A stretch of DNA of 64,000 nt from Mycolicibacterium sp. YH-1 (lineage in GTDB: Bacteria; Actinomycetota; Actinomycetes; Mycobacteriales; Mycobacteriaceae). The translations under genes were made by a program, and so were the position numbers. Each line of letters begins with the position of its first letter. Position 1 is the stretch's first letter. Shown in pieces: positions 32,406-46,946 of the stretch. The notes below the pieces were generated by a model. That model was not told where the DNA came from. It ran no database searches and worked only from the letters and a program-made list of their open reading frames with translations. The DNA lies in the NCBI RefSeq assembly GCF_022557175.1, contig NZ_CP092915.1, positions 5,394,001-5,458,000 on the forward strand, written 5' to 3'.

Positions 32406-33179
32406 TCAGCGAAGTTCGGTGGTGCTGGCGGCCTCAAGCGTCGAGCCGCGCGATGCGTCCTTGAGGTCCACACCGGATCGCCCCAGCTCACGTGCGCCCG
32501 CAACCAGGCCCGCCGCGACCCGGGCCGCCTCGGCGTATCCGAGACCGTCGGGCGGGTGGATGTTGGAGATGCAGTTGCGGTTGGCGTCGGTGCAGCCGAG
32601 CCGCGGCAGGTGGGTCAGGTAGATGCCAAGGCTGTCGGCGACGCTCAGACCGGGCCGTTCACCGATGACGACGAGCAGCGTCCGCACCCCCAGCTGTGCG
32701 CCGATGTGGTCTCCGAGCCCGACCCTGGCCTGCGTCGCGATGACGGGCGGCGCCAGCGTGTAGCGGTCCCCCAGCTGCGCCGCGAGTGCCTTCAGCAGAG
32801 CCGCGCCATGGTGACTCAGCGCGGTCGGCGAGAGTCCGTCGGCCAGGACGAAGCCGATATCGACTCCGCTCTCGGCCACCATCGTCACGTCGGCCGGTAT
32901 CCGGCCCAGATCGGGCCGACGCAGGTACTCGTCGCGGGATGCGGCGCGGCTGGTCACCACCGTTGGCTCGCCGATACCCACCTGGCGCACCTCGCCGATC
33001 AGCCGATCGACGTCCAGCGGGACATGCACGGCATCGCGGGCGGCGGCATGGGCCGCGGCCAGCTCCAGCACCTGCCGGGTCGGCAGGGCATTCCCTGCGC
33101 GGCCCAGACCGATCCTGGCCTGCGTCGACTTGCGCAGCTCGTCCCAGAACTCGCGGACGGCGGGATTCTCGGCGGTCAT
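32406..33179 (-). CDS. eutC: Ethanolamine ammonia-lyase small subunit
   Basis: Small subunit of the adenosylcobalamin-dependent lyase that splits ethanolamine into acetaldehyde and ammonia. It has 257 residues; STQARIGLGRAGNALPTRQ, DIGFVLADGLSPTALSHH, GIGEPTVVTSRAASRDEYLR and the closing LVVIGERPGLSVADSLGIYL with NRNCISNIHPPDGLGYAEAA are EutC signatures. The start at 33179 overlaps the eutB stop as ATGA. It is last in the eat-eutB-eutC operon. No N-terminal extension of the kind found on microcompartment-targeted EutC is present. Confidence 0.93.
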   Translation of the reverse strand: MTAENPAVREFWDELRKSTQARIGLGRAGNALPTRQVLELAAAHAAARDAVHVPLDVDRLIGEVRQVGIGEPTVVTSRAASRDEYLRRPDLGRIPADVTMVAESGVDIGFVLADGLSPTALSHHGAALLKALAAQLGDRYTLAPPVIATQARVGLGDHIGAQLGVRTLLVVIGERPGLSVADSLGIYLTHLPRLGCTDANRNCISNIHPPDGLGYAEAARVAAGLVAGARELGRSGVDLKDASRGSTLEAASTTELR

Positions 33180-34591
33180 GGTGTCTGCGCCGAGGTGAGC
33201 GAACGCAACGCCGAATGGGCGACGTCGAAGGGAGTGAGGCGGCCGGTGTCGTCGACCATCCCCACGGTGCGCAGCCACGCCTCGAACTCGGGGGCGGGCC
33301 GCAGTCCCAGCGTGCGGCGCGTCACCAGCACGTCATGAAACGACAGGCTCTGGTAGCCGAGCATCACGTCGTCGGCGCCGGGCACGGTGATCACGAATGC
33401 CACACCCGCTGCCGCAAGCAGCATGAGCAGGGTGTCCATATCGTTCTGGTCGGCTTCGGCGTGGTTGGTGTAGCAGACGTCGACACCCATCGGCAGGCCG
33501 AGCAGCTTGCCGCAGAAGTGGTCCTCAAGCCCTGCGCGGATGATCTGCCTGCCGTCGTAGAGATACTCCGGGCCGATGAAGCCGACGACCGTGTTGACCA
33601 GGAGCGGTTGCAGGTCGCGGGCCACCGCGTAGGCGCGCGTCTCGAGGGTCTGCTGATCGACGGGCTTACCTCCGGTACCCAGGTGCGCGCCCGAACTCAA
33701 TGCCGAGCCCTGTCCGGTCTCCAGATACATCACGTTGTCCCCCACGGTGCCGCGCCGCAGGCTGCGTCCGGCATCGCGGCCCTCGCGCAGCAGGGCGAGG
33801 TCGACGCCGAACGCGGTGTTGGCTCCCTGGGTGCCGGCTATCGACTGGAACACCAGGTCGACGGGTGCGCCCGCCTCGATGAGACCGATCGTGGTGGTGA
33901 TGTGCGACAGCACGCAGGACTGCGCCGGAATGTCGTAGCGGGTGCGGATGGAGTCGAGGAGGTGCAGCAGGTCGGCGGTTGCCTGCGGGGAGTCGGTGGC
34001 CGGGTTGATACCGATGACGGCGTCACCGCATCCCAGGAGCAACCCATCTAGCACGGCTGCGGCGACACCGCGGGGGTCATCGGTCGGATGGTTGGGTTGC
34101 AGCCGCGTCGCCAGTGTTCCGCGCCTGCCGACCGTGGTCCGAAACGATGCGGTCACCTCCATGGCGGCCGAGACCGCGATGAGGTCCTGGTTGCGCATGA
34201 TCTTGCTGACGGCGGCGACCATCTCCGGGGTCAGGCCCGGCGCCACGGCGGCAAGATCCGCCGCACCGTCATCGCGCGATGCGGCGTCCAGCAGCCAGTC
34301 CCGGAAGCCACCGACGGTCAGATGCGATATCACCGAAAAGGCTTGGCGGTCATGGCTATCGAATATCAGCCGAGTGACCTCGTCGGTCTCGTAAGGCACG
34401 ATCGCCTCGTTGAGAAAGGTGTCAAGCGGCAGGTCCGCCAGAACCCACGCCGCCGCGGCGCGTTCCGCGTCGTGTTCGGCCGCGCATCCGGCGAGCTGGT
34501 CGCCCGAGCGCAACGGTGTGGCCTTGGCCATCACCTCGATCAGTCCGTCGAAGGCGTATGACTCCCCCGCGACCTGTTGCCGGTAGATCAC
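33176..34591 (-). CDS. eutB: Ethanolamine ammonia-lyase large subunit
   Basis: Catalytic TIM-barrel subunit of the B12-dependent ethanolamine ammonia-lyase, 471 residues. MRNQDLIAVSAAMEVTASFR, GDAVIGINPATDSPQATADL, DLVFQSIAGTQGANTAFGVD and VGFIGPEYLYDGRQIIRAGL are EutB signatures; GVDVCYTNHAEADQNDMDTL closes the active-site region. The start overlaps the eat stop by 4 bases (ATGA), and its own end overlaps eutC by 4 bases, so the three genes are one translation-coupled unit. It should act in the cytosol, since no shell genes are present. Confidence 0.95.
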   Translation of the reverse strand: MIYRQQVAGESYAFDGLIEVMAKATPLRSGDQLAGCAAEHDAERAAAAWVLADLPLDTFLNEAIVPYETDEVTRLIFDSHDRQAFSVISHLTVGGFRDWLLDAASRDDGAADLAAVAPGLTPEMVAAVSKIMRNQDLIAVSAAMEVTASFRTTVGRRGTLATRLQPNHPTDDPRGVAAAVLDGLLLGCGDAVIGINPATDSPQATADLLHLLDSIRTRYDIPAQSCVLSHITTTIGLIEAGAPVDLVFQSIAGTQGANTAFGVDLALLREGRDAGRSLRRGTVGDNVMYLETGQGSALSSGAHLGTGGKPVDQQTLETRAYAVARDLQPLLVNTVVGFIGPEYLYDGRQIIRAGLEDHFCGKLLGLPMGVDVCYTNHAEADQNDMDTLLMLLAAAGVAFVITVPGADDVMLGYQSLSFHDVLVTRRTLGLRPAPEFEAWLRTVGMVDDTGRLTPFDVAHSALRSLTSAQTP

Positions 34592-36009
34592 TTGAGTTCG
34601 CTCTCCGCCCTCGCGAGCATGGCGAACTCCTCATCGGGCGAGTTGGCCACCAGTTTGTGCCGGCTGTAGACCGCGAAGTACAGCATGAACGCGGCGAACA
34701 CGGCGAGGCACCAGCCGGCCGCGACGGGATTGACCAGGAATGTCGCGATCACCGCGAGAACCGCGATGACGAGGGCGAATCCGGTCGTGATCGCACCGCC
34801 AGGGGTCCGGTAGGGCCGCGGCATATCCGGTTCGCGGCGGCGCAGCACGATATGGCTGACCATCATGAGCACGTAGCTGAGCGCGGCGCCGAAGACCGCC
34901 ATGTTCAGCAGCAGGTCGCCCTGCCCCGTCAGCGACAGCACGAAGCCGATGACACCGGGAACGATCAGCGCCAGCGTGGGCGCCTTCCGCGAGTTCGTCA
35001 CCGACAGCGCCGTGGGCAGATAACCCGCCCGCGACAGTGCGAACAGCTGTCGGGAGTAGGCGTAGATGATCGAGAAGAAGCTGGCGATCAGCCCGGCCAG
35101 ACCGATGTAGTTCACGATCTTGGCCGCGGTGCCGTCGCCGAGCGCCTCGACCAAGGGGTTACCCGATGACGACATCTCCTGTGCTCCACCGGCTCCGGTG
35201 GTCAGGATCAGCACCGTCACGCAGGTGACCAGCAGGACGCTCATGCCGGCGATGATGCCGCGCGGGACGTTGCGCTCCGGGTTGGCGGTCTCCTCGGCAG
35301 CCAGCGGCACGCCCTCGATGGCCAGGAAGAACCAGATGGCGAACGGTATCGCGGCCCAGATACCCAGGTAGCCGTGTGGCAGGAAGCTGGACGCACCGGC
35401 CGCATCGGTGGGAGCGATATTGGTCAGGTTGGCCAGATCGAAGTGGCCGACGGCGGAGATCGCGAACACCAGCAGACCCACCAGGGCGATGGCGGTGATC
35501 ACGAACATCACCTTGAGTGCCTCACCGACGCCAGCCAGGTGAATCCCGATGAACAGGGCGTACGCCGCCAGGTAGATCCACCACCCGCTGGTGATGCCGA
35601 ACAGCCCCAACGACTCGACATAGGCCCCGATGAAGGTCGCGATGGCAGCTGGCGCGATCGCGTACTCGATGAGAATGGCTGTGCCGGTGGCGAATCCACC
35701 CCATGGACCGAGCGCGCGACGCGCGAAGGTGTAACCGCCACCCGCCGCCGGCAGCGCCGAGGACAGCTCGGCCATACCCAGCACGAGAGCCAGGTACATA
35801 CCGGCGATGATGACGGCGGCGATCGCCAGCCCGCCGAAACCGCCCTGCTCGAGACCGAAGTTCCAGCCCGAGTAGTCACCGGAGATGACGTAGCTGACCC
35901 CGAGCCCGGCCAACAACAGCCAGCCCGCGCTGCCCGATTTGAGCTGCCGCTTCTGCAGATAGTCTGCGCTTTCCAGATGTTCTTCAACGCCTGCCACTTG
36001 GAACTCCAT
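34588..36009 (-). CDS. eat: Ethanolamine permease (APC superfamily)
   Basis: A 473-residue transporter with about 12 hydrophobic segments. The N-terminal region GSAGWLLLAGLGVSYVISGD, then YSGWNFGLEQGGFGGL, and the AAGGGYTFARRALGPWGGFA segment are characteristic of ethanolamine permeases in the amino acid-polyamine-organocation family. It would import ethanolamine for EutBC, whose genes follow with 4-base overlaps. A perfect inverted repeat (36067-36094) lies 58 bases upstream of its start and may be the operon's operator. Confidence 0.92.
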   Translation of the reverse strand: MEFQVAGVEEHLESADYLQKRQLKSGSAGWLLLAGLGVSYVISGDYSGWNFGLEQGGFGGLAIAAVIIAGMYLALVLGMAELSSALPAAGGGYTFARRALGPWGGFATGTAILIEYAIAPAAIATFIGAYVESLGLFGITSGWWIYLAAYALFIGIHLAGVGEALKVMFVITAIALVGLLVFAISAVGHFDLANLTNIAPTDAAGASSFLPHGYLGIWAAIPFAIWFFLAIEGVPLAAEETANPERNVPRGIIAGMSVLLVTCVTVLILTTGAGGAQEMSSSGNPLVEALGDGTAAKIVNYIGLAGLIASFFSIIYAYSRQLFALSRAGYLPTALSVTNSRKAPTLALIVPGVIGFVLSLTGQGDLLLNMAVFGAALSYVLMMVSHIVLRRREPDMPRPYRTPGGAITTGFALVIAVLAVIATFLVNPVAAGWCLAVFAAFMLYFAVYSRHKLVANSPDEEFAMLARAESELK

Positions 36010-36123: not shown

Positions 36124-36546
36124 CTAGCCGAAACTCAATATTGGTGTGCGCGGCATCGGCTTAAGCGGAAGACTCACCACGATGCGGGCCGCGTTGTGGC
36201 CCAGAGTCCTTGCGACATCACGGTCTGCGGCACCGTCAGAGCACAGCTCCGACAACGGCTCGGAGAGCTTGTCGTGGTGCACGCAGACATCCCCGGCGGC
36301 TCCCACTCCCACACCGACGTGCAACGGTGAGCGCAGCGCCGCCTGACGAGCAAGACCTGTCGCAGACGCGGCCTCGGTGTTGATTCGGGGGGGCCATTGA
36401 ACCGAGTAGGGGACGCCCTCCTCCTCGATGCCGGCCAGCACCTCACGCAGCTGCGGCCCGTCAGCTGCGCGCAGTACGACGATCACGGGCGGTTCGGGCT
36501 GTCCGCGGGCGGACCTGGGGCGGGGGATGTTCCCGTCACGCGTCAA
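36124..36546 (-). CDS. pduH: Diol dehydratase reactivase, small subunit (PduH/DdrB-like)
   Basis: Small subunit of the chaperone that swaps damaged cobalamin out of diol dehydratase. VIVVLRAADGPQLREVLAGI, EEEGVPYSVQW, the LHVGVGVGAAGDVCVHHDKL core and RTLGHNAARIVVSLPLK resemble PduH. The start is uncertain: TTG 36546 (140 residues) has GGCAGGG upstream and overlaps the pduG stop; ATG 36576 and GTG 36486 are alternatives. The usual length is about 120-125 residues. It ends the E-C-D-G-H operon, 114 bases before eat. Confidence 0.83.
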   Translation of the reverse strand: MTRDGNIPRPRSARGQPEPPVIVVLRAADGPQLREVLAGIEEEGVPYSVQWPPRINTEAASATGLARQAALRSPLHVGVGVGAAGDVCVHHDKLSEPLSELCSDGAADRDVARTLGHNAARIVVSLPLKPMPRTPILSFG

Positions 36547-38404
36547 CGCGCTGCCCTGCCAACCGCGGTACGGCATACGATGCGACCAGACCAGAGGCCA
36601 CCGCGTTGCGAGGCCCCTCTGTGCCCCGCACATTGCCTGTGCCACAGACGATCCCGTAGGACGCCAGCGCATCGGCGATGAGGTCTGGGATCTCGAAGTC
36701 GAGAGCACAGCCGCCCAACAGCACCACGAACCCGATCTGACGCAGATCACCGCCGGGCGCGACCGTCCTCAACGCCCGCAGGGCGTTCACCACGAAGACG
36801 CGCTCCTTGGCGCCACGGCGCACGGCCCGGATGCGGTCGAGAGAATGCCTAGTCGGAATCGGGTTCATCGCCTGTCCGGACAGAGTCACCACCCTGGCGA
36901 ACGCCGTTGCGGGTAGGGGCGAGGTGAAGAACTGCACGGTGCCGTTCTCCAGCCGAACGTGGAAGAAACTCTCCGCCTTCCCCAGCGGGAACCGCTTGAT
37001 CTCCTCGGCCAGTTCGAGATTGTCCAGCCCGAGTTCGGAATCGATCAGCCTGCTGACCAGATCGCCCGCACCGGCCAGGTGCACGGTGTCGATGGTGTCA
37101 TCGACCTCGATAAGGGCCGCATCCGTCGAGCCGCCACCGAGATCGAGTACCACCAGCGGCTTGTCGGTGCCGGGCGTGGTGAGCGCACCGAGCACCGCCA
37201 TCTCCGCCTCGACCCCTCCGACGACGACATCCACCCGCGTGGCACCGGTGGCGTGCAGGCGGTGCCGCACTGCCTCGGCAACGGCCTGCATACCGCTCTC
37301 CAGAGTGCGCACCATGGCCGCAAGGGCGACCGCATTCTCCAGCGCCACCTCCCCCGCGAGGCCACCCCGAACCTCCTGCGGCACAAAGGTGTCCACTGCG
37401 AGCAGGTCCTGGATGTGTACGTCGGCGAGGGCATGCTCGGACAGATCGGCCATACCCTGACGGACATTCGCAATCATGCCACCGGTGTTGGTGCCCGCCT
37501 CCCCCACAACGTCAGCCATCGGACTGACCCGCTCCACAGCCGTCATGATCTCGACGGCACCGCGGGACACGTCCACCGTTGTGCGTCGGCTCTCGCCGAT
37601 CAGCTCGAGGGATCCCGCCGGGATGGTGCGGTCGGCGACATCACCGGTGGGTGTGCGCACCACGACCGCCGAGCGGTTACCGGTCAACGCCCGCGCCACC
37701 GGCGAGACCACCTTGGTGGCGGCGGGGTCGAGATCGAAGATCGTCGCCAGGCCGTAGGCGTTGGACAGAGTCCGGATCGACTGACCGGGACCGGACACCT
37801 CGACGGCCGCGAGCATGCCCAGGGGCACCGCCTCGATGCGTGACACCTCGTCGATCACCGGGATGGCGGTGTTGAGCCGGTTCACCACCAGAACCGCATC
37901 GTCGTTGCCGAGGATCGCCCCGACGACCCGCACGCCCCGTTCGGTGGCCGCATTGATCGCACGGGCGGTCATCTCGAAGTCGACACCCCTTGCGACGACC
38001 GCGATCACCGCCGTGTCCGAGGGGATCTCGGTGAGCGTCTCGAAGCGGACCGTGATGCCGACACCGAGCCCTCGACCACCGGGGGTGCGTGGGTCGTGAC
38101 CGATCATCGTCGACTCGGTGATGATGGTCTCGGTGATGGTCTCCATGGCCAGACCACTGATCACCGGTGTGGCCTCGTTCAGCAGGACGACGTCGAGTTC
38201 GGTCAGGGCGATACCGGCGTCCCCGAGCGCGCAGCTGACGGCGGCCGCCACGCCGTCGACATTCTTCGGCGTGCCCTTTATGCCGGTGGTGGGCGTCAAG
38301 GCGGCGCCGACGAACCGCACGGATCCATCCGGGCCCACGGTCGCGGCACTGGCCTCCGTCGTCGAGTTGCCGATATCGACGCCGACAACGGTCCGCGTGG
38401 CCAA
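36536..38404 (-). CDS. pduG: Diol dehydratase reactivase, large ATPase subunit (PduG/DdrA-like)
   Basis: A 622-residue ASKHA-fold ATPase that, with PduH, reactivates the B12 dehydratase by ATP-driven release of cyanocobalamin-like dead cofactor. Phosphate-binding motifs are VVGVDIGNSTTEASAA at the N-terminus and PLVVLDLGGGSTDAALIEVD in the middle; TPKNVDGVAAAVSCAL, VLLNEATPVISGLAMETITE and the C-terminal FVVLLGGCALDFEIPDLI are family features. The start codon is TTG at 38404, directly after the pduD stop. No separate reactivase (EutA) for ethanolamine ammonia-lyase exists in the window. Confidence 0.93.
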   Translation of the reverse strand: MATRTVVGVDIGNSTTEASAATVGPDGSVRFVGAALTPTTGIKGTPKNVDGVAAAVSCALGDAGIALTELDVVLLNEATPVISGLAMETITETIITESTMIGHDPRTPGGRGLGVGITVRFETLTEIPSDTAVIAVVARGVDFEMTARAINAATERGVRVVGAILGNDDAVLVVNRLNTAIPVIDEVSRIEAVPLGMLAAVEVSGPGQSIRTLSNAYGLATIFDLDPAATKVVSPVARALTGNRSAVVVRTPTGDVADRTIPAGSLELIGESRRTTVDVSRGAVEIMTAVERVSPMADVVGEAGTNTGGMIANVRQGMADLSEHALADVHIQDLLAVDTFVPQEVRGGLAGEVALENAVALAAMVRTLESGMQAVAEAVRHRLHATGATRVDVVVGGVEAEMAVLGALTTPGTDKPLVVLDLGGGSTDAALIEVDDTIDTVHLAGAGDLVSRLIDSELGLDNLELAEEIKRFPLGKAESFFHVRLENGTVQFFTSPLPATAFARVVTLSGQAMNPIPTRHSLDRIRAVRRGAKERVFVVNALRALRTVAPGGDLRQIGFVVLLGGCALDFEIPDLIADALASYGIVCGTGNVRGTEGPRNAVASGLVASYAVPRLAGQRVDA

Positions 38405-38998
38405 CTAGTTCACCGGGTCCTCGGCGAACTGCGGCACCACCTCGACCGGACGGGCCTGCTTGCGAATCTGCTCGGTCTCCTTCAGATGCAGCAGCGCGGC
38501 CTTAGCCTGCCACCGCGGGCGGGCCATCTGGTCGTTGAGTGTCGGAACCGGTTCCGGTGACTCCCCTTTCGCATACTGCGCGGCGTTCGACCCGATGCTG
38601 CGGTAGGTGTCGAGGGTCATCAGCGGACTCTGCGGGAACAGTTCCAGACTGGAGAGCCGCGGCAGGTCGCGCTGATGGATCATCGAGGTCCCGCGCGACA
38701 GGATGCCAATTCCGATTCCCGAACCGGACAGCTTGGCCGCGGTGTGCGCCACGACCGCGAGGTCGCTGCTGTGCCGGACCCGGATGCACCGCGCGGTGAC
38801 CTCCTGCTCCTCGATGCCAGCCAGGATCTGCCGGATCACCTCAGCGTGGGACACCCCGATGATGGTCTGGCTGAAGAAGTCGGCGAACGCTGGCGATATC
38901 GCCAGCACCACCTCGTCGGAGCGCGTACCCGGCTGCGCGGGGGTGTCCCCGGTAAAGGCCAAGGTCCATCTGGGTGCATCGAACGCAACCTCGGTCAT
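38405..38998 (-). CDS. pduD: Diol/glycerol dehydratase, medium subunit
   Basis: Medium subunit of the adenosylcobalamin-dependent propanediol/glycerol dehydratase, 197 residues. DEVVLAISPAFADFFSQTII, HAEVIRQILAGIEEQEVTAR, GSGIGIGILSRGTSMIHQRD, LSSLELFPQSPLMTLDTYR and PVPTLNDQMARPRWQAKAAL match PduD closely. It starts almost directly in the enzyme domain and lacks the roughly 35-residue N-terminal extension that targets Salmonella PduD to the microcompartment. The start lies one base after the pduC stop. Confidence 0.95.
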   Translation of the reverse strand: MTEVAFDAPRWTLAFTGDTPAQPGTRSDEVVLAISPAFADFFSQTIIGVSHAEVIRQILAGIEEQEVTARCIRVRHSSDLAVVAHTAAKLSGSGIGIGILSRGTSMIHQRDLPRLSSLELFPQSPLMTLDTYRSIGSNAAQYAKGESPEPVPTLNDQMARPRWQAKAALLHLKETEQIRKQARPVEVVPQFAEDPVN

Positions 38999-38999
38999 A

Positions 39000-40721
39000 T
39001 CACTGGACCTCCATTTCCGGGTTCGAGGCACTGGTGACGTGACGCAAGCGCTTCATCTCCTCCCAGCGCGCGCCGGACGGCCGGTAACCCGTGCCCGGTC
39101 CGGCGTAGTCATTGCGGTCGTTGACGGCGGACAACGGCGTCAGGTCGCGGGTCATGATCGCCGATGTCTGCAGCAGGTCGCCCGAAACCCGTTGACGCAG
39201 CACGCTGAGCAGGTTCTCGGCGACATCGGAGAAGCCCGTCGACTCGAGCGCCTTGACCAGATCGAGGCCCGTCACGTTGCGATCCATGACCTGCTGGGCC
39301 CCCTTGAGGTCCTCGAGGACGTCGCGGGGCACCAGTTCCCGACTGCCGTGCGCGTAGACGGCCGCGTCGATCTCCGCATCGGAGATCGACGGTAGGTCCA
39401 GGTGTCTGAAGACGGCCTGCAGCGCCTGACCGGCACGCAGCCGCGCCGCGAGGATCTCGGCTTCGTTCACGTGCCGCAGACCGCCGTCGATCTGCAGGTC
39501 GCGCTGAATGGTGTTGAAGTCGTCGAAGTCCTCGGCGTCCACGTTCGATCCGGCGAACATGTTGTCGTAGTTGGGAGTTGCCGAGTAGCCCGACGTGATG
39601 AAGTCGGTCCCCGGCATCATCTGGGGCAGCAGGCGTGCGGTCCGCCGCATCGGCGAGTGCGAGAACGACTGGTCGTTGCCCGACGCACACTCCAGGTCCA
39701 CCGCGGATGCAACGAGATTCTCCGCCGCCACCGCCCTGATCCCCGCAGGCACCGCACCCGGCACACCGATGCACGAGATCGAACCGTTCTGCAGACCCTG
39801 CACTCCGGCGCCCTTGGCCACCAGGATGCAGCGAATCTCCAGGTACAGCATCGACCGGCCCTCGGCGTTACCCATCTGCACCTCGGAGCCGGTTCCCGAG
39901 GTGAAGCGCATCTTGATTCCGCGGGACGCGTACGCCGCCGCCAGGAACGCCTTCGACCACGGGGTGTCGTCACCGTCGACGAACACCGACTCGGTGCCGT
40001 ACACCGAGATGGTCTCCGCGTACGCGGTGATGCCGCGCATGCCCAACTCGAGTTCGGTGGCCTCCTCCAGTGCACACTGGGTCAGCCGGCCGCCGGTGCC
40101 GACCTGGGCGCCGATCTGCAGGGCCATCGCGACCAGCGGGGCGTACCGCACGACACCCAAAGTCGTCTCCACCTCAGAGAATCCGCGAAGCGATGCCTCT
40201 GCCGCCTCGCAGGCGACCTGCAACGGGTTGTCCCGGGCGCTGGTGCAGTGCGCCTGATTGGCCGGAGTCCGGCGGGCCCGCATCTTCTGCATACCCATCA
40301 TGATCTCGACGATGTTCATCGCCTTCATGACCTCCAGCAGTTTCGCCGGAGTCAGGCCACCGGTCACGGCGATCACCTCGTCGCGGGAAACCCTGGGATC
40401 AACGAGCATTCCCGCGATCTCCACCGCAGGGATCGCCATCGACTGCGCGGTGGTGTCCACGTCGATCGCCTTATCGGCGATGAACTGGTCGATGAAGTCG
40501 AAATCGGCCCGTGCCCTGCCATCCATCTCGACGATGACGCCGTCAACAACCCGCACGCTCGGCTTTGGGTCGAACTCGCTGTCCATCGCGACCATGCCGA
40601 CCTCGGGCCACTCCTCGACGAAACCGTCAAGGTTGACCGGCCGGTCCTCGAGAACCCTTGTCCGCTCGGATTGGCGCTTCTCGGGGGCTGAATTCCTGGG
40701 TGCTACCGCGGTCACAACCAT
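39000..40721 (-). CDS. pduC: Diol/glycerol dehydratase, large subunit
   Basis: Catalytic TIM-barrel subunit of the B12-dependent dehydratase converting 1,2-propanediol to propionaldehyde (or glycerol to 3-hydroxypropionaldehyde). It has 573 residues. MKAMNIVEIMMGMQKMRARR, TPANQAHCTSARDNPLQVA, FTSGTGSEVQMGNAEGRSML, GVQGLQNGSISCIGVPGAVP and SGYSATPNYDNMFAGSNVDA are diagnostic. It follows pduE by 3 bases and precedes pduD by one. The substrate preference (diol versus glycerol) cannot be decided by eye. Confidence 0.96.
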   Translation of the reverse strand: MVVTAVAPRNSAPEKRQSERTRVLEDRPVNLDGFVEEWPEVGMVAMDSEFDPKPSVRVVDGVIVEMDGRARADFDFIDQFIADKAIDVDTTAQSMAIPAVEIAGMLVDPRVSRDEVIAVTGGLTPAKLLEVMKAMNIVEIMMGMQKMRARRTPANQAHCTSARDNPLQVACEAAEASLRGFSEVETTLGVVRYAPLVAMALQIGAQVGTGGRLTQCALEEATELELGMRGITAYAETISVYGTESVFVDGDDTPWSKAFLAAAYASRGIKMRFTSGTGSEVQMGNAEGRSMLYLEIRCILVAKGAGVQGLQNGSISCIGVPGAVPAGIRAVAAENLVASAVDLECASGNDQSFSHSPMRRTARLLPQMMPGTDFITSGYSATPNYDNMFAGSNVDAEDFDDFNTIQRDLQIDGGLRHVNEAEILAARLRAGQALQAVFRHLDLPSISDAEIDAAVYAHGSRELVPRDVLEDLKGAQQVMDRNVTGLDLVKALESTGFSDVAENLLSVLRQRVSGDLLQTSAIMTRDLTPLSAVNDRNDYAGPGTGYRPSGARWEEMKRLRHVTSASNPEMEVQ

Positions 40722-40724
40722 CTC

Positions 40725-41153
40725 CTATTCGCTGGTGGCCAGGATGTCGCGACGCTGGTAGACGTCTGCGGCTTCACGGACGAGATCGGCCAGCAGTGTT
40801 GCGCCATACTGGTTCTGCAGCTCATCGGCTATCGATTCGAGTTCATCCTTCGTCGACGCATTTGGCCGCAACGCGTTGTAGATCTGCAGCACCCGCTCGT
40901 CGCTGATCGTGGTCATCTCGGCCGCGCGGCGCAGGTTCCCGCCGAGCTGTTTGCGACCGTCCTTCTCGGCGATCTGGGCCTGCAGGCGCAGTGTCTGCGG
41001 TGTGATGCGCAGGTCTGAGGCCTCGACCTCACCCGACATCACCGACTCCATGGTGATGGCGTCGATGGGCTTGCCGTTCGGGGTGAAGAGCAGGTCCTTG
41101 CGATTGCTGCTCAGCGGGTAATCCACTGCAGGGTCCAGGTTCGGCTCTGTCAT
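40725..41153 (-). CDS. pduE: Diol/glycerol dehydratase, small subunit
   Basis: A 142-residue small subunit. DYPLSSNRKDLLFTPNGKPI, SDLRITPQTLRLQAQIAEKD, RAAEMTTISDERVLQIYNAL, RPNASTKDELESIADEL and LVREAADVYQRRDIL match PduE. The protein reaches the conserved DYPL at residue 11, so the N-terminal targeting helix present in Salmonella PduE is absent. It is first in the operon, before pduC, unlike the C-D-E order of enterobacteria. The longer open frame to 41885 overlaps the divergent FhuF-like gene and is not real. No clear ribosome site precedes the ATG. Confidence 0.93.
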   Translation of the reverse strand: MTEPNLDPAVDYPLSSNRKDLLFTPNGKPIDAITMESVMSGEVEASDLRITPQTLRLQAQIAEKDGRKQLGGNLRRAAEMTTISDERVLQIYNALRPNASTKDELESIADELQNQYGATLLADLVREAADVYQRRDILATSE

Positions 41154-41238
41154 GCTGAGATTGTGCGCTGCATCACGTTGCACGGAGGTTGGTGCGCAGG
41201 TCAGTGGTGATCCCGGGGTGCCGCTAGCCTGGCTGACG

Positions 41239-41949
41239 ATGACCGTCCCGCATCCGGCAGCAATGAACCCGATCGCCGAACTCGGCGAGTTCTTCGCCCT
41301 TCCCACGGCTGAGGGTGATTCGTGGCTGCCGATCCTCACCCTGTGCAACGATGCCGCGGTCGCGCGCGAGTACGCCCGTCGCGCCCAGTCCGCGATCGCC
41401 GCCTCGATGCGCGTAGACGTGGCCGACGTGCCCATCAAGGCCGCCGCATCCTCGGTCCATCTGTCGATCGCGGCCCGACTGCTGTCCCCGGTCATCGGGG
41501 CCGCAACCTGCCTGGCAACGTTTCCGCTGCTGACTGCGAAAAACGTCTTCTGGCAACAAACTTCGACGCATCGCATGGAACTCGGGGTCGCAGATGCCGA
41601 GTTGGCCACGGTCACCGGTCCACGGCAGTCCGCCAACGCCATCGCCGACTCCCTCATCGGCGATGTGTTTCGCCCGTTGAACGAGACCATGCGTCTGGCA
41701 ACCGCGCTGTCGCAGAAGGTGTTGTGGGGCAACATCGCATCAGCGGCCAACGGTGCGGTGACGGTCCTATCACAGTCCCGGCCGGCGGATGAACCGCGCG
41801 GGCGTGCGCTGGTAGCCGCGCTCATCGCGACGGGTCCGTTGCGCGATGCAGCCGAGATTCTCGACGGCCAGTTCCGGCGGCGCAACTGCTGCCTGTTCTA
41901 TCAGGTGCCCGGGGCGGGATACTGCGGCGATTGCGTTCTGACGGAATGA
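41239..41949 (+). CDS. FhuF-like [2Fe-2S] ferric reductase family protein
   Basis: A 236-residue protein divergent from pduE. Its C-terminus carries Cys217, Cys218, Cys229 and Cys232 (CC-x10-C-x2-C, within RRNCCLFYQVPGAGYCGDC), the [2Fe-2S] ligand pattern of FhuF-type siderophore-iron reductases. The middle has helical segments (AAASSVHLSIAARLLSPVIG) seen in that family. The ATG at 41239 is preceded by TAGCCT and 8 bases, possibly leaderless. Known members reduce ferric siderophores; a link to corrinoid or haem redox in this locus is inference. It converges with the PduO-C-like gene, 12 bases away. Confidence 0.75.
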   Translation: MTVPHPAAMNPIAELGEFFALPTAEGDSWLPILTLCNDAAVAREYARRAQSAIAASMRVDVADVPIKAAASSVHLSIAARLLSPVIGAATCLATFPLLTAKNVFWQQTSTHRMELGVADAELATVTGPRQSANAIADSLIGDVFRPLNETMRLATALSQKVLWGNIASAANGAVTVLSQSRPADEPRGRALVAALIATGPLRDAAEILDGQFRRRNCCLFYQVPGAGYCGDCVLTE

Positions 41950-41961
41950 CTTACAACTGCA

Positions 41962-42360
41962 TCACAGGGCTGCGACGCCGGCCTCTGCCACCGACACGTC
42001 CTGTTCCACACTGCCCGCGCTGACTCCGATCGCGCCGATCACCACACCCTCGGACTCCAGCAGCAGACCGCCGCCGAAGATCACCAGGCCGCCCGATGTC
42101 TGCTCGAGACCGTAGAGCTCGGCGCCGGGTTGCGACACCGCAGTCAAGGCACTGGTGGGCAGGTTCATCATGATCGAGGTCCGTGCCTTGCGAATCGATA
42201 TGTCGATACTGGCCTTGATCGCGCCGTCCATTCGCACGAACGCGACCAGATGCCCGCCGTCGTCGACCACAGCGATGTTCATCGGCTTGCCGATCTCGAT
42301 CGCCTTGGCGACCGCGGCATCAATCACGTTCTGGGCAGTCTTCAGCAGCAGGGAACCCAT
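41962..42360 (-). CDS. GlcG/HbpS family protein (DUF336, PduO C-terminal domain-like)
   Basis: A 132-residue stand-alone domain. AVVDDGGHLVAFVRMDGAIK, the IDISIRKARTSIMM segment and LVIFGGGLLLESEGVVIGAI with GVSAGSVEQDVSVAEAGV match the DUF336 (GlcG/HbpS) family. This domain is also the C-terminal half of the cobalamin adenosyltransferase PduO, where it binds haem; the adenosyltransferase half is absent here. AGGAG lies before the ATG at 42360. Its role next to a B12 dehydratase is probably cofactor (haem or corrinoid) handling, by inference. Confidence 0.85.
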   Translation of the reverse strand: MGSLLLKTAQNVIDAAVAKAIEIGKPMNIAVVDDGGHLVAFVRMDGAIKASIDISIRKARTSIMMNLPTSALTAVSQPGAELYGLEQTSGGLVIFGGGLLLESEGVVIGAIGVSAGSVEQDVSVAEAGVAAL

Positions 42361-42458: not shown

Positions 42459-43982
42459 TTAGAAGAAGCCCTGCGCCTTGTTCGAGTAGCTGACCAACAG
42501 GTTCTTCGTCTGCTGGTAGTGGTCCAGCATCATCTTGTGGTTCTCGCGGCCGATACCCGACTGCTTGTACCCACCGAATGCGGCGTGCGCGGGGTACTGG
42601 TGGTAGCAGTTGGTCCAGACGCGGCCAGCCTTGATGTCGCGACCAGCCCGGTAGGCGGTGTTGCCGTCGCGGCTCCACACTCCCGCACCGAGTCCGTAGA
42701 GGGTGTCGTTGGCGATGCTGATGGCCTCGTCGTAGTCCTTGAACGACGTGACCGCGACGACGGGCCCGAAGATCTCCTCCTGGAACACCCGCATCTTGTT
42801 GTGGCCGGTGAAGATCGTCGGCGCGACGTAGTAGCCACCGTTGAGATCGCCGCCGAGTTCGGCGCGCTCACCGCCGGTGAGCACCTTGGCGCCCTCGGAC
42901 TTGCCGATCTCGATGTAGGACAGGATCTTCTCCAACTGGTCGTTGGAGGCCTGCGCCCCGATCATCGTCTCGGTGTCCAGCGGATCGCCCTGGCGCACGG
43001 CCTTGGTACGGATGGCGGCCAGTGCGAGGAACTCGTCGTAGACGTCGGCCTGGATCAGGCTGCGCGACGGGCAGGTGCACACCTCGCCCTGGTTGAGGGC
43101 GAACATGGTGAAGCCCTCGAGCGCCTTGTCCTGGTAGTCGTCGGCGGCCGCCATCACGTCGTTGAAGAAGATGTTCGGGCTCTTGCCGCCGAGTTCCAGG
43201 GTGACGGGGATCAGGTTCTGCGACGCGTACTGCATGATCAGCCGGCCGGTCGTGGTCTCGCCGGTGAACGCGATCTTGGCGATCCGGTTGCTCGACGCCA
43301 GCGGCTTGCCCGCCTCAACGCCGAAGCCGTTGACGATGTTCACCACGCCCGCGGGGAGCAGGTCGCCGATGATCGAGAACAGGTGCAGGATCGAGGCCGG
43401 GGTCTGCTCGGCGGGCTTGAGCACGATGGCGTTACCCGCGGCAAGCGCCGGCGCCAGCTTCCACACGGCCATCAGGATCGGGAAGTTCCACGGAATGATC
43501 TGCCCGACCACGCCCAACGGCTCGTGGAAGTGGTAGGCGACGGTGTCCTCGTCGACCTGCGACAGTGAACCCTCTTGCGCACGAATGCATCCCGCGAAGT
43601 AGCGGAAGTGGTCGATGGCCAGCGGGATGTCGGCGTTGAGCGTCTCGCGGACCGGCTTTCCGTTATCCCATGACTCGGCGACTGCGATCGACTCGAGGTT
43701 CTCCTCGATGCGGTCGGCGATCTTGTTCAGGATCAGCGCGCGCTCCGCCGGTGAGGTCTTACCCCACGCGGGAGCGGCGGCGTGCGCGGCGTCCAGCGCC
43801 TTCTCGATGTCAGCCTCGGTCGAACGGGCGACCTCGCAGAACACCTCACCGGTGACCGGAGTGGGGTTGGCAAAGTACTCGCCGCCGACGGGTGCCACCC
43901 ACTCGCCGCCAATGAAGTTGTCGTATCGGGACTGGAAGGACATCACGGCGCCCTCGGTACCCGGACGTGCGTAAACAGTCAT
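42459..43982 (-). CDS. NAD-dependent aldehyde dehydrogenase
   Basis: A 507-residue non-acylating aldehyde dehydrogenase, likely oxidising acetaldehyde or propionaldehyde from the two B12 enzymes. The cofactor region is [20 protein letters not shown] and [13 protein letters not shown], the general base in [13 protein letters not shown], and the catalytic cysteine is near 303-305 in [13 protein letters not shown]. The ending [17 protein letters not shown] is typical of AldA/acetaldehyde dehydrogenase II. AGGAGAG supports the ATG at 43982. It diverges from a TetR regulator. Confidence 0.92.
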
Positions 43983-45659: not shown

Positions 45660-46946
45660 TCAGCCGATGTCGAGATCGAGGCCGGCGAGGTGTCCACTCG
45701 CGGTGGCGCGCTGCACCGACCCCGCGGGCACGCCGTCGTGCAGGATGCGCCAGCCGTCGCGGTCGTCGCGTCCCTCGGGCAGTTCGAGCCAACGGTTCAG
45801 CAGCGCGATATCCCCGGTGCCAAGCACCGCTGCGCGCACGCTCGTGGACAGTTCGGCACGCAGGCGGCCGATCGCCGGCGACACCGACTGCGGTAGCAGC
45901 TCCCCGCGGTACTGCGATACCGCGGCCGCGACATCGCCGCGCCGCAGGGCCTCGAACACGTCGCCCAGATCGCTGTCGACGGGCTCGAGCAGCCGGTAGG
46001 GCCGGGAGCCGACGTACTGGGTTCCGATGACGCGACGCAGCCGCGACATCTCGGCGCGAATCGTCACAGCGTCGAGGTCGTTGTCGTCCAACAACATTGC
46101 GAGATGATCAGCGCTCAGACCCTCCTGGTGGCGGGTGAGCAGAACCAGGATGTCGGCGTGCCTGCCGGTGAGCGTGCAGGCGTCCAGACCACCCTCGGAC
46201 GTCCACCGGGGGCGTCCTGCGCCAAGGACCGACAGGCGGGCGCGGTGCACCGCGGCATCGGCGGATCGGGTGAGCGCCAGCAGCGCGAGGTGGTTCTCGA
46301 TGGCAACGGCGGTGGCCCGGACCAGGGCGAGGGTCTGCGGTGAGGCGACCTGCGGGCCGCCGGTGAGATCGATGGCCCCGAGCACCAGGCCAGTGGCGGG
46401 ATCGTGGACGGGCACCGCGGTGCAGTTCCACGGCTGCACGATGCGGGAGAAGTGCTCGCTGCCCCGGATCTGCAGTTCGCGGTCCAGCGCCACCGCCGTG
46501 CCGGGTGCGTTGGTACCGGCACGTCGCTCGCTCCAGTCCGCACCGGGGACGAAGTTCATGGTCTCGGCCCTGCGCCGGGCGACCGGGTCGCCCTCGACCC
46601 ACAGCAGGGTGCCGTCGGCGGCCATCACCGCGACCACCACACCCGCATCGGATGCGTCCTCGACCAGAAGCCGGCGGATGACAGGTAGCGCGGCGGTCAG
46701 CGGATGGCTGGCGCGCAGTTCGTCGAGGGTACGGGCAGCCCAGGAAAGCTCGGCACCGCTGTGGTCGGGGTCAACACCGATGGCGAGGCTGCGCTGCCAG
46801 CTTTCGGCGACCACCTTGCGTAGTGGCGAGGAGTCCAGATAGCTCGCGTCGACCTCACCGGCGACAAAGAGTTCGTGCATCGCGCGCACGGCCGATCCGG
46901 GCGGCTGGTCCATGGCCCCGCCGCCCGTGGTCCTCGAGGCACTCAC
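45660..46946 (-). CDS. GAF-domain transcriptional regulator with winged HTH
   Basis: A 428-residue protein. The N-terminal part resembles AcoR-type sensors (VVAESWQRSLAIGVDPDHSG, then VVVAVMAADGTLLWVEGDPV), with a GAF domain around residues 80-240 (GTNAPGTAVALDRELQIRGS; CTAVPVHDPATGLVLGAIDL). The C-terminal part (LTGRHADILVLLTRHQEGLS; TIRAEMSRLRRVIG) looks like a winged helix-turn-helix. No sigma-54 ATPase domain is present. Similar genes often neighbour aldehyde dehydrogenase genes, so it is the best candidate activator of this catabolic block. The start may be 46946 or the ATG at 46913. Confidence 0.75.
   Translation of the reverse strand: MSASRTTGGGAMDQPPGSAVRAMHELFVAGEVDASYLDSSPLRKVVAESWQRSLAIGVDPDHSGAELSWAARTLDELRASHPLTAALPVIRRLLVEDASDAGVVVAVMAADGTLLWVEGDPVARRRAETMNFVPGADWSERRAGTNAPGTAVALDRELQIRGSEHFSRIVQPWNCTAVPVHDPATGLVLGAIDLTGGPQVASPQTLALVRATAVAIENHLALLALTRSADAAVHRARLSVLGAGRPRWTSEGGLDACTLTGRHADILVLLTRHQEGLSADHLAMLLDDNDLDAVTIRAEMSRLRRVIGTQYVGSRPYRLLEPVDSDLGDVFEALRRGDVAAAVSQYRGELLPQSVSPAIGRLRAELSTSVRAAVLGTGDIALLNRWLELPEGRDDRDGWRILHDGVPAGSVQRATASGHLAGLDLDIG

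Follow-up and report, generated by a model that had tools for sequence, protein, structure and literature searches.

It is not yet understood why B12-dependent diol dehydratases are enclosed in a protein shell in some bacteria but not in others, a question raised by a dehydratase locus of Mycolicibacterium sp. YH-1. The locus lies in a stretch of 64,000 nucleotides, hereafter the window (NZ_CP092915.1, positions 5,394,001 to 5,458,000), of a genome that consists of a single contig (C1) of 7,267,399 bases. Coordinates are those of the window unless prefixed with C1. A first-pass annotation of the window had proposed a cytosolic enzyme that works without a bacterial microcompartment (BMC). Judged from the sequence, we give a probability of about 0.88 to the reading that the dehydratase is free in the cytosol, as an adenosylcobalamin-dependent diol/glycerol dehydratase with its own two-subunit reactivase, and that its aldehyde product is oxidised by a neighbouring ExaC-type enzyme.

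Dehydratase subunits and shell genes

The dehydratase genes are all on the minus strand, in the order E-C-D followed by the reactivase, Eat, EutB and EutC, and each gene from pduE through eutC scored above a curated cut-off. The pduE-like small (gamma) subunit (40725..41153, 142 amino acids) matched PF02287 (191 bits) and NF011975 (222 bits, cut-off 196); the pduC-like large (alpha) subunit (39000..40721) matched PF02286 (983 bits); and the pduD-like medium (beta) subunit (38405..38998, 197 amino acids) matched NF011616 (299 bits). The three subunit domains (PF02286, PF02288 and PF02287) were all above cut-off. A dedicated reactivase follows, with a PduG-type large subunit (36536..38404; TIGR04491, 868 bits, cut-off 400) and a PduH-type small subunit (36124..36540, start uncertain; PF02288, 86 bits) that also matched the small reactivase subunit of the E. 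coli dha locus. The enzyme and its reactivase are thus complete, as had been stated. PduC retains Gln141, His143, Glu170, Glu221, Gln296, Asp335 and Ser362 (E. coli PduC numbering), the catalytic residues of this enzyme class. The same seven residues are kept in 14/14 orthologues from the genus and in all the fused dehydratase sequences examined; Cys replaces Ser362 in 2 of the 80 named loci of the wider comparison. Mutants of Q141, H143, E170, Q296 and S362 have been tabulated (PMC7674605, used here in excerpt, as are the other papers cited by PMC number).

PduD begins at its enzyme domain and PduE reaches the DYPL motif at residue 11, as first described. Between residues 9 and 186, PduD runs in register with the Klebsiella glycerol dehydratase beta subunit (also 9-186), and it is offset by 33 relative to the K. 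oxytoca diol dehydratase beta subunit. PduE residue 10 aligns with residue 9 of the glycerol dehydratase gamma subunit and residue 41 of the diol dehydratase gamma subunit (offset 31). Both subunits are short, like those of the Klebsiella glycerol dehydratase. The PduD start is preceded by GGAGGT, 8 nt before the ATG, and the frame closes 18 codons upstream. The hydrophobic moment of the best N-terminal 14-mer was 0.16 for PduD and 0.04 for PduE; in four BMC-linked examples it was 0.56-0.76 for PduD and 0.54-0.66 for PduE. No N-terminal encapsulation peptide was recognised in the window PduD. The C-terminus of PduE had a moment of 0.70, but this segment lies inside the Dehydratase_SU match and is also aligned in the free glycerol dehydratase. 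At its N-terminus PduC is longer than the Klebsiella proteins by about 14 residues; because these are variable among orthologues and of low moment (0.14), they were not read as a signal.

It had also been claimed that the PduD and PduE extensions of Salmonella both direct encapsulation. This stands for PduD, residues 1-18 of which are a targeting signal, and falls for PduE, whose extension is reported to be dispensable for localisation and whose residues 1-16 failed to target GFP (PMC12108088, which cites Fan and Bobik 2011).

Domain, profile and tblastn searches for shell genes were empty in the window, in agreement with the first-pass annotation: the BMC-H profile found nothing there, and neither the E. 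coli pduA, B, J, K, L, M and N queries nor the aminotransferase, two BMC-T and BMC-P queries from the mycobacterial RMM microcompartment gave a tblastn match. In the whole genome, PF00936 had three matches (one below cut-off) at C1:444702-446209 and the vertex family PF03319 a single match (C1:444991-445224), all outside the window (C1:5394001-5458000).

In a survey of 148 genomes of the genus, PF02286 was matched in 42 and PF00936 in 30. The PF02286 matches were sorted by score band into type A (that of the window, 15 genomes), type B (13) and type C (36); the source genome carries one large subunit of each type, with B at C1:6043638 and C at C1:450952. In none of the 15 type A genomes did a BMC gene lie on the contig of the dehydratase at a distance of 20 kb or less; nine had BMC genes elsewhere and six had none. 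The vertex family PF03319 was absent from the six genomes searched for it, five of which were type A genomes without a PF00936 match. Type B was likewise unlinked to BMC genes (0/13; three genomes without any), and type C was linked in 11/36 genomes at 6-8 kb, with BMC genes elsewhere in 12 and none in 13. All 14 orthologous type A stretches (12-18 kb) kept the order E-C-D-G-H, and none of them contained a shell gene; PduD relatives that are 91-93% identical are encoded by Mycolicibacterium mageritense and M. wolinskyi, among others. The N-termini, the synteny and the six genomes that have the enzyme with no BMC match support a shell-free, probably cytosolic enzyme.

Several observations weigh against this reading. 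An RMM shell locus is present in the genome, roughly 2.3 Mb from the window by the shorter way if the contig is circular, and in 6 of the 15 type A genomes the BMC genes sit on another contig, so that their distance is undefined. RMM-type genes adjoin 19 of the 36 type C loci (20 if the truncated locus of G067 is counted). The frame of the window PduE is open upstream for 248 codons, with no clear Shine-Dalgarno sequence. The N-terminal moments of PduD in the 14 orthologues span 0-0.44, the top value being nonzero though below the BMC-linked range. Finally, ExaC was found in only 7/14 orthologous stretches (five whole, two cut at the stretch end) and eat-eutBC in only 8/14.

The first-pass annotation would have yielded to co-expressed BMC genes elsewhere in the genome or to N-terminal extensions at the true starts. 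Shell genes do exist at the RMM locus, yet by their presence alone they do not overturn the shell-free reading because they are unlinked to the window and the window subunits have no N-terminal encapsulation peptide. For PduD the start is settled by its ribosome-binding motif and closed frame, and for PduE it is nearly so by the orthologues: their frames close within 34 codons in 12/14 cases (the other two at 115 and 269), and 8/14 offer no start codon further upstream than the aligned one. An upstream PduE start was considered and thought unlikely on these frames. The GGAG seen upstream of pduE in 13/14 orthologues is absent from the window (41154-41190), and the transcript from which the window pduE is translated may be leaderless. 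As for the patchy neighbourhood, ExaC was present in 20/21 genus genomes searched, the sole miss being 73% complete. Given the incomplete occurrence of ExaC and eat-eutBC in the stretches, the dehydratase appears to be coupled to ExaC by genome more than by locus.

Subunit length and ancestry

To place the short subunits in a wider frame, GTDB contigs were scanned with an alignment of PduC sequences that had E. coli PduC as its first row, and the best 80 of at least 451 confirmed loci were compared; this sample is not random and leans to enterobacteria and firmicutes. Among these 80, PduE was at least 160 amino acids long in 70/70 loci with a BMC gene within the stretch and 140-144 amino acids long in 10/10 loci without one, and the window PduE falls in the short class. 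The 70/10 split was obtained at a BMC profile threshold of 1e-3; with an earlier profile (containing one out-of-frame sequence, at 1e-6) there were 69 long loci with BMC, and 10 short loci plus one long locus (L103) without, L103 being moved to the BMC class when the threshold was loosened. The classes were defined by PduE length alone, as automatic start calling gave wrong PduD lengths in some rows (e.g. L069, L070 and L139); it was also wrong for the PduE lengths of the window, L056 and L062. In both subunits the extension goes together with the shell, as seen for PduE across the 80 loci and for PduD in the examples that were read.

Among known systems, the dha regulon (E. coli NZ_CP061764.1 and Klebsiella plasmid examples) shares with the window the separate subunits, the short beta and gamma subunits, the reactivase, an HbpS/GlcG neighbour and the lack of shell genes in the stretch. 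It differs in its gene order (C-D-E), in its adjoining adenosyltransferase and dhaT (1,3-propanediol dehydrogenase) genes, neither of which has a homologue in the window (for dhaT, by tblastn), and in its reductive outlet, where the window has ExaC. The pdu microcompartment operon (E. coli NZ_CP073939.1) has homologous PduC, PduD, PduE and reactivase, but it carries shell genes, long PduD and PduE and a phosphate propanoyltransferase, all lacking in the window. The Salmonella pdu operon is a further example of this kind.

The window enzyme could descend from a BMC-linked one whose shell and targeting peptides were lost along the lineage that led to mycobacteria. In the phylum there is indeed a BMC-linked relative whose subunits are long (locus L158 of genome G185). 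However, the window PduC scores higher against the Klebsiella glycerol dehydratase (818 bits) than against the diol dehydratase (778 bits), and four other genomes of the phylum with an unfused dehydratase of similar score (G274, G321, G327 and G380) have no PF00936 match (4/4). In the three of these four with PduD and PduE on the contig the N-termini are short, two of the PduE frames being open upstream so that their starts are inferred. We regard such an ancestry as rather unlikely.

Substrate, neighbouring genes and the aldehyde

We infer the substrate, the route of the aldehyde and the cytosolic location as follows. The B12 enzyme would dehydrate a small 1,2-diol (1,2-propanediol, ethylene glycol or glycerol) to an aldehyde in the cytosol, and the aldehyde would be oxidised to the acid by the ExaC-type acetaldehyde dehydrogenase encoded upstream on the same strand (42459..43982; NF050026, 976 bits, cut-off 900). 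ExaC-type aldehyde dehydrogenases are non-acylating and NAD-linked. Acetaldehyde released by the neighbouring ethanolamine ammonia-lyase would go to the same dehydrogenase. A shell would not be needed because the aldehyde is drained by oxidation, with no call for a private CoA pool. As to an acylating aldehyde dehydrogenase, the RMM enzyme used as query (PduP was not used) gave in the window only a 26% partial match to ExaC.

A comparable set is found in M. smegmatis, where published labels place an aldehyde dehydrogenase at MSMEG_1543, the dehydratase at MSMEG_1546-1548 and eutBC at MSMEG_1553-1554; the probable orthology of MSMEG_1543-1554 to the window is drawn from these labels and their numbering. 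MSMEG_1547 is listed as a glycerol dehydratase large subunit (PMC8088520, Table 1), and it was transcribed on androstenedione, cholesterol and glycerol (PMC4881515). MSMEG_1543 and MSMEG_1546 were both down in a regulator mutant (PMC11303327).

Downstream of the reactivase, on the minus strand, lie an ethanolamine permease (Eat, 34588..36009; TIGR00908, 544 bits, cut-off 382), EutB, the ethanolamine ammonia-lyase large subunit (33176..34591; PF06751, 686 bits), with no shell genes near it, and EutC, the small subunit (32406..33179; PF05985, 271 bits; NF003971, 295 bits). The adjacency of Eat-EutBC, in the window and in the eight orthologous stretches mentioned above, raises the alternative that the locus serves mainly ethanolamine or glycerol use and not 1,2-propanediol catabolism. 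The active-site pocket is compatible with this: Ser301, Cys302 and Gln336 are kept in 97/97 unfused sequences (the window, the 14 orthologues, two dha loci and the 80 named loci), so that the window enzyme has the pocket of the known diol and glycerol dehydratases. These residues are common to both kinds of enzyme and do not separate glycerol from propanediol, and the dhaT gene of the glycerol pathway has no counterpart in the window; a main role in ethanolamine or glycerol use is accordingly a tentative proposal, which we think improbable.

The remaining neighbours are an HbpS/GlcG-like gene on the strand of pduE (41962..42360; PF03928, 132 bits) and, on the plus strand and divergent from pduE, a FhuF-like 2Fe-2S protein gene (41152..41949; PF11575 FhuF_C, 38 bits) whose true start is probably downstream of 41152. 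The FhuF-like gene was seen in 13/14 orthologous stretches and the HbpS-like gene in 14/14, at varying distance. A role of the FhuF-like protein in reducing cobalamin is possible and was also considered jointly with HbpS. A regulator on the minus strand (45660..46946) weakly resembles DhaR (NF008485, 54 bits, far below the cut-off of 551; 25% partial match to E. coli DhaR). A scan of the window with Rfam at gathering thresholds, which covers the B12 riboswitch, gave no match.

RMM operons and fused dehydratases

The first-pass annotation had set the window enzyme against the mycobacterial RMM system for aminopropanol. This contrast was incomplete: the source genome itself has an RMM locus, with a second dehydratase beside it and a third elsewhere, and shell-free dehydratases were already known from the dha regulon. 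The window locus is one more example of these, and the probably optional shell block of its relatives is the more interesting point. Dehydratases B (L009, C1:6036001-6054000) and C (L008, C1:438001-456000) both have fused large and medium subunits. The operon of C diverges from the RMM operon, which encodes a class III aminotransferase, an acylating-type aldehyde dehydrogenase, two BMC-T, BMC-H and BMC-P shell proteins, an accessory protein, a kinase and a short-chain dehydrogenase. The source genome therefore has an RMM2 locus as published, a shell operon with a divergent dehydratase (PMC4207490). In this genome the adjacent dehydratase is a fused protein with a changed pocket; the window enzyme is unfused and far from it. 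Although the presence of this locus, and the many signal-less Pdu proteins that localise to the core in Salmonella (PMC12108088), leave room for packaging of the window dehydratase into the RMM microcompartment through an unrecognised signal or by piggy-backing on other cargo, candidate encapsulation helices are encoded in the RMM locus itself (aldehyde dehydrogenase C-terminus, moment 0.56; accessory protein N-terminus, 0.68), against 0.04-0.16 for the window N-termini, and six of the 15 genomes with a window-type enzyme have no BMC match, so we consider this very improbable.

RMM2 with divergent dehydratase genes was published in 2014 by Axen et al., who thought that the shell either does not use the divergent dehydratase or is bifunctional (PMC4207490). 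Beyond that paper, no report of shell-less RMM loci, or of the compartment status of a window-type mycobacterial dehydratase, was found in the open-licence literature. Of 36 type C loci, 11 stand beside a shelled RMM operon and eight beside a shell-less one (L171, L177, L178, L180, L181, L182, L183 and L185); 16 have no RMM genes in the stretch (those of G008 and G041 being contig-limited), and the G067 locus is truncated within the aminotransferase or just past it. The eight shell-less operons are all from genomes without a PF00936 match, at 73-100% completeness. The spacing between the aminotransferase and kinase genes was 15-121 bases in these eight and 3,829-3,956 bases in the shelled loci (measured in 10, the eleventh being cut by a contig end), where the spacer contains the aldehyde dehydrogenase, the accessory protein and the shell genes as a contiguous block. 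In G142, the sole shell-less genome searched, the RMM aldehyde dehydrogenase was missing (best match partial, 3.3e-8).

The shell-less loci do not group as a single clade. Well-supported branches of the fused-dehydratase tree require three or more changes of the shell-less label when the contig-limited L176, L184 and L201 are left out, and at least four when contig-limited loci are included; on the tree of aminotransferase, kinase and dehydrogenase at least two changes are needed. G142 is placed inside the shelled loci on the former tree and beside them on the latter, and the shelled loci G033 and G066 group with shell-less loci on both, so that regain of the shell block is possible. The shelled order is also found outside the family, in G507 (L165), which makes loss of the block more likely. 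In G507 the shelled RMM genes are succeeded, without a change of strand, by an HbpS-like gene, a B-like fused dehydratase, its small subunit and a reactivase. Together with the adjacency of type C loci to RMM-type genes, this same-strand arrangement suggests that the RMM pathway and the fused dehydratase are functionally linked, even if the latter is not shell cargo.

We are inclined to see the RMM compartment of the genus as an optional cassette of an amino-alcohol operon: the shell genes, the helix-bearing accessory protein and the acylating-type dehydrogenase would have disappeared (or returned) together more than once, whereas the dehydratase and the other pathway genes were kept. If so, no mycobacterial diol dehydratase, be it that of the window or the RMM-adjacent one, would be obligatory shell cargo, and lineages would switch, for one and the same kind of aldehyde, between an acylating route inside a shell and a free one. 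Genomes that hold both a shell system and a shell-free dehydratase, and relatives without the shell block, form natural pairs within one genus that would allow a test of what the shell is worth.

The fused enzymes differ from that of the window in their pocket. Positions 301, 302 and 336 are Asp, Gly and Asn/Ser/Thr in 17/17 fused sequences (the two of the source genome, four of type B and 11 of type C), and D301, G302 and N336 in the enzyme beside the source genome's own RMM locus; the altered pocket suggests a different substrate. An amino-diol was considered as this substrate and, being a guess, was not used. The ends of the source genome's RMM-adjacent fused protein had moments of 0.22 (N) and 0.27 (C), and its small subunit 0.28 (N) and 0.69 (C), the C-terminal segment again lying inside the Dehydratase_SU match. 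Three dehydratases are likewise listed for M. smegmatis (PMC8088520, Table 1), in which fused dehydratases have been noted before (PMC7674605).

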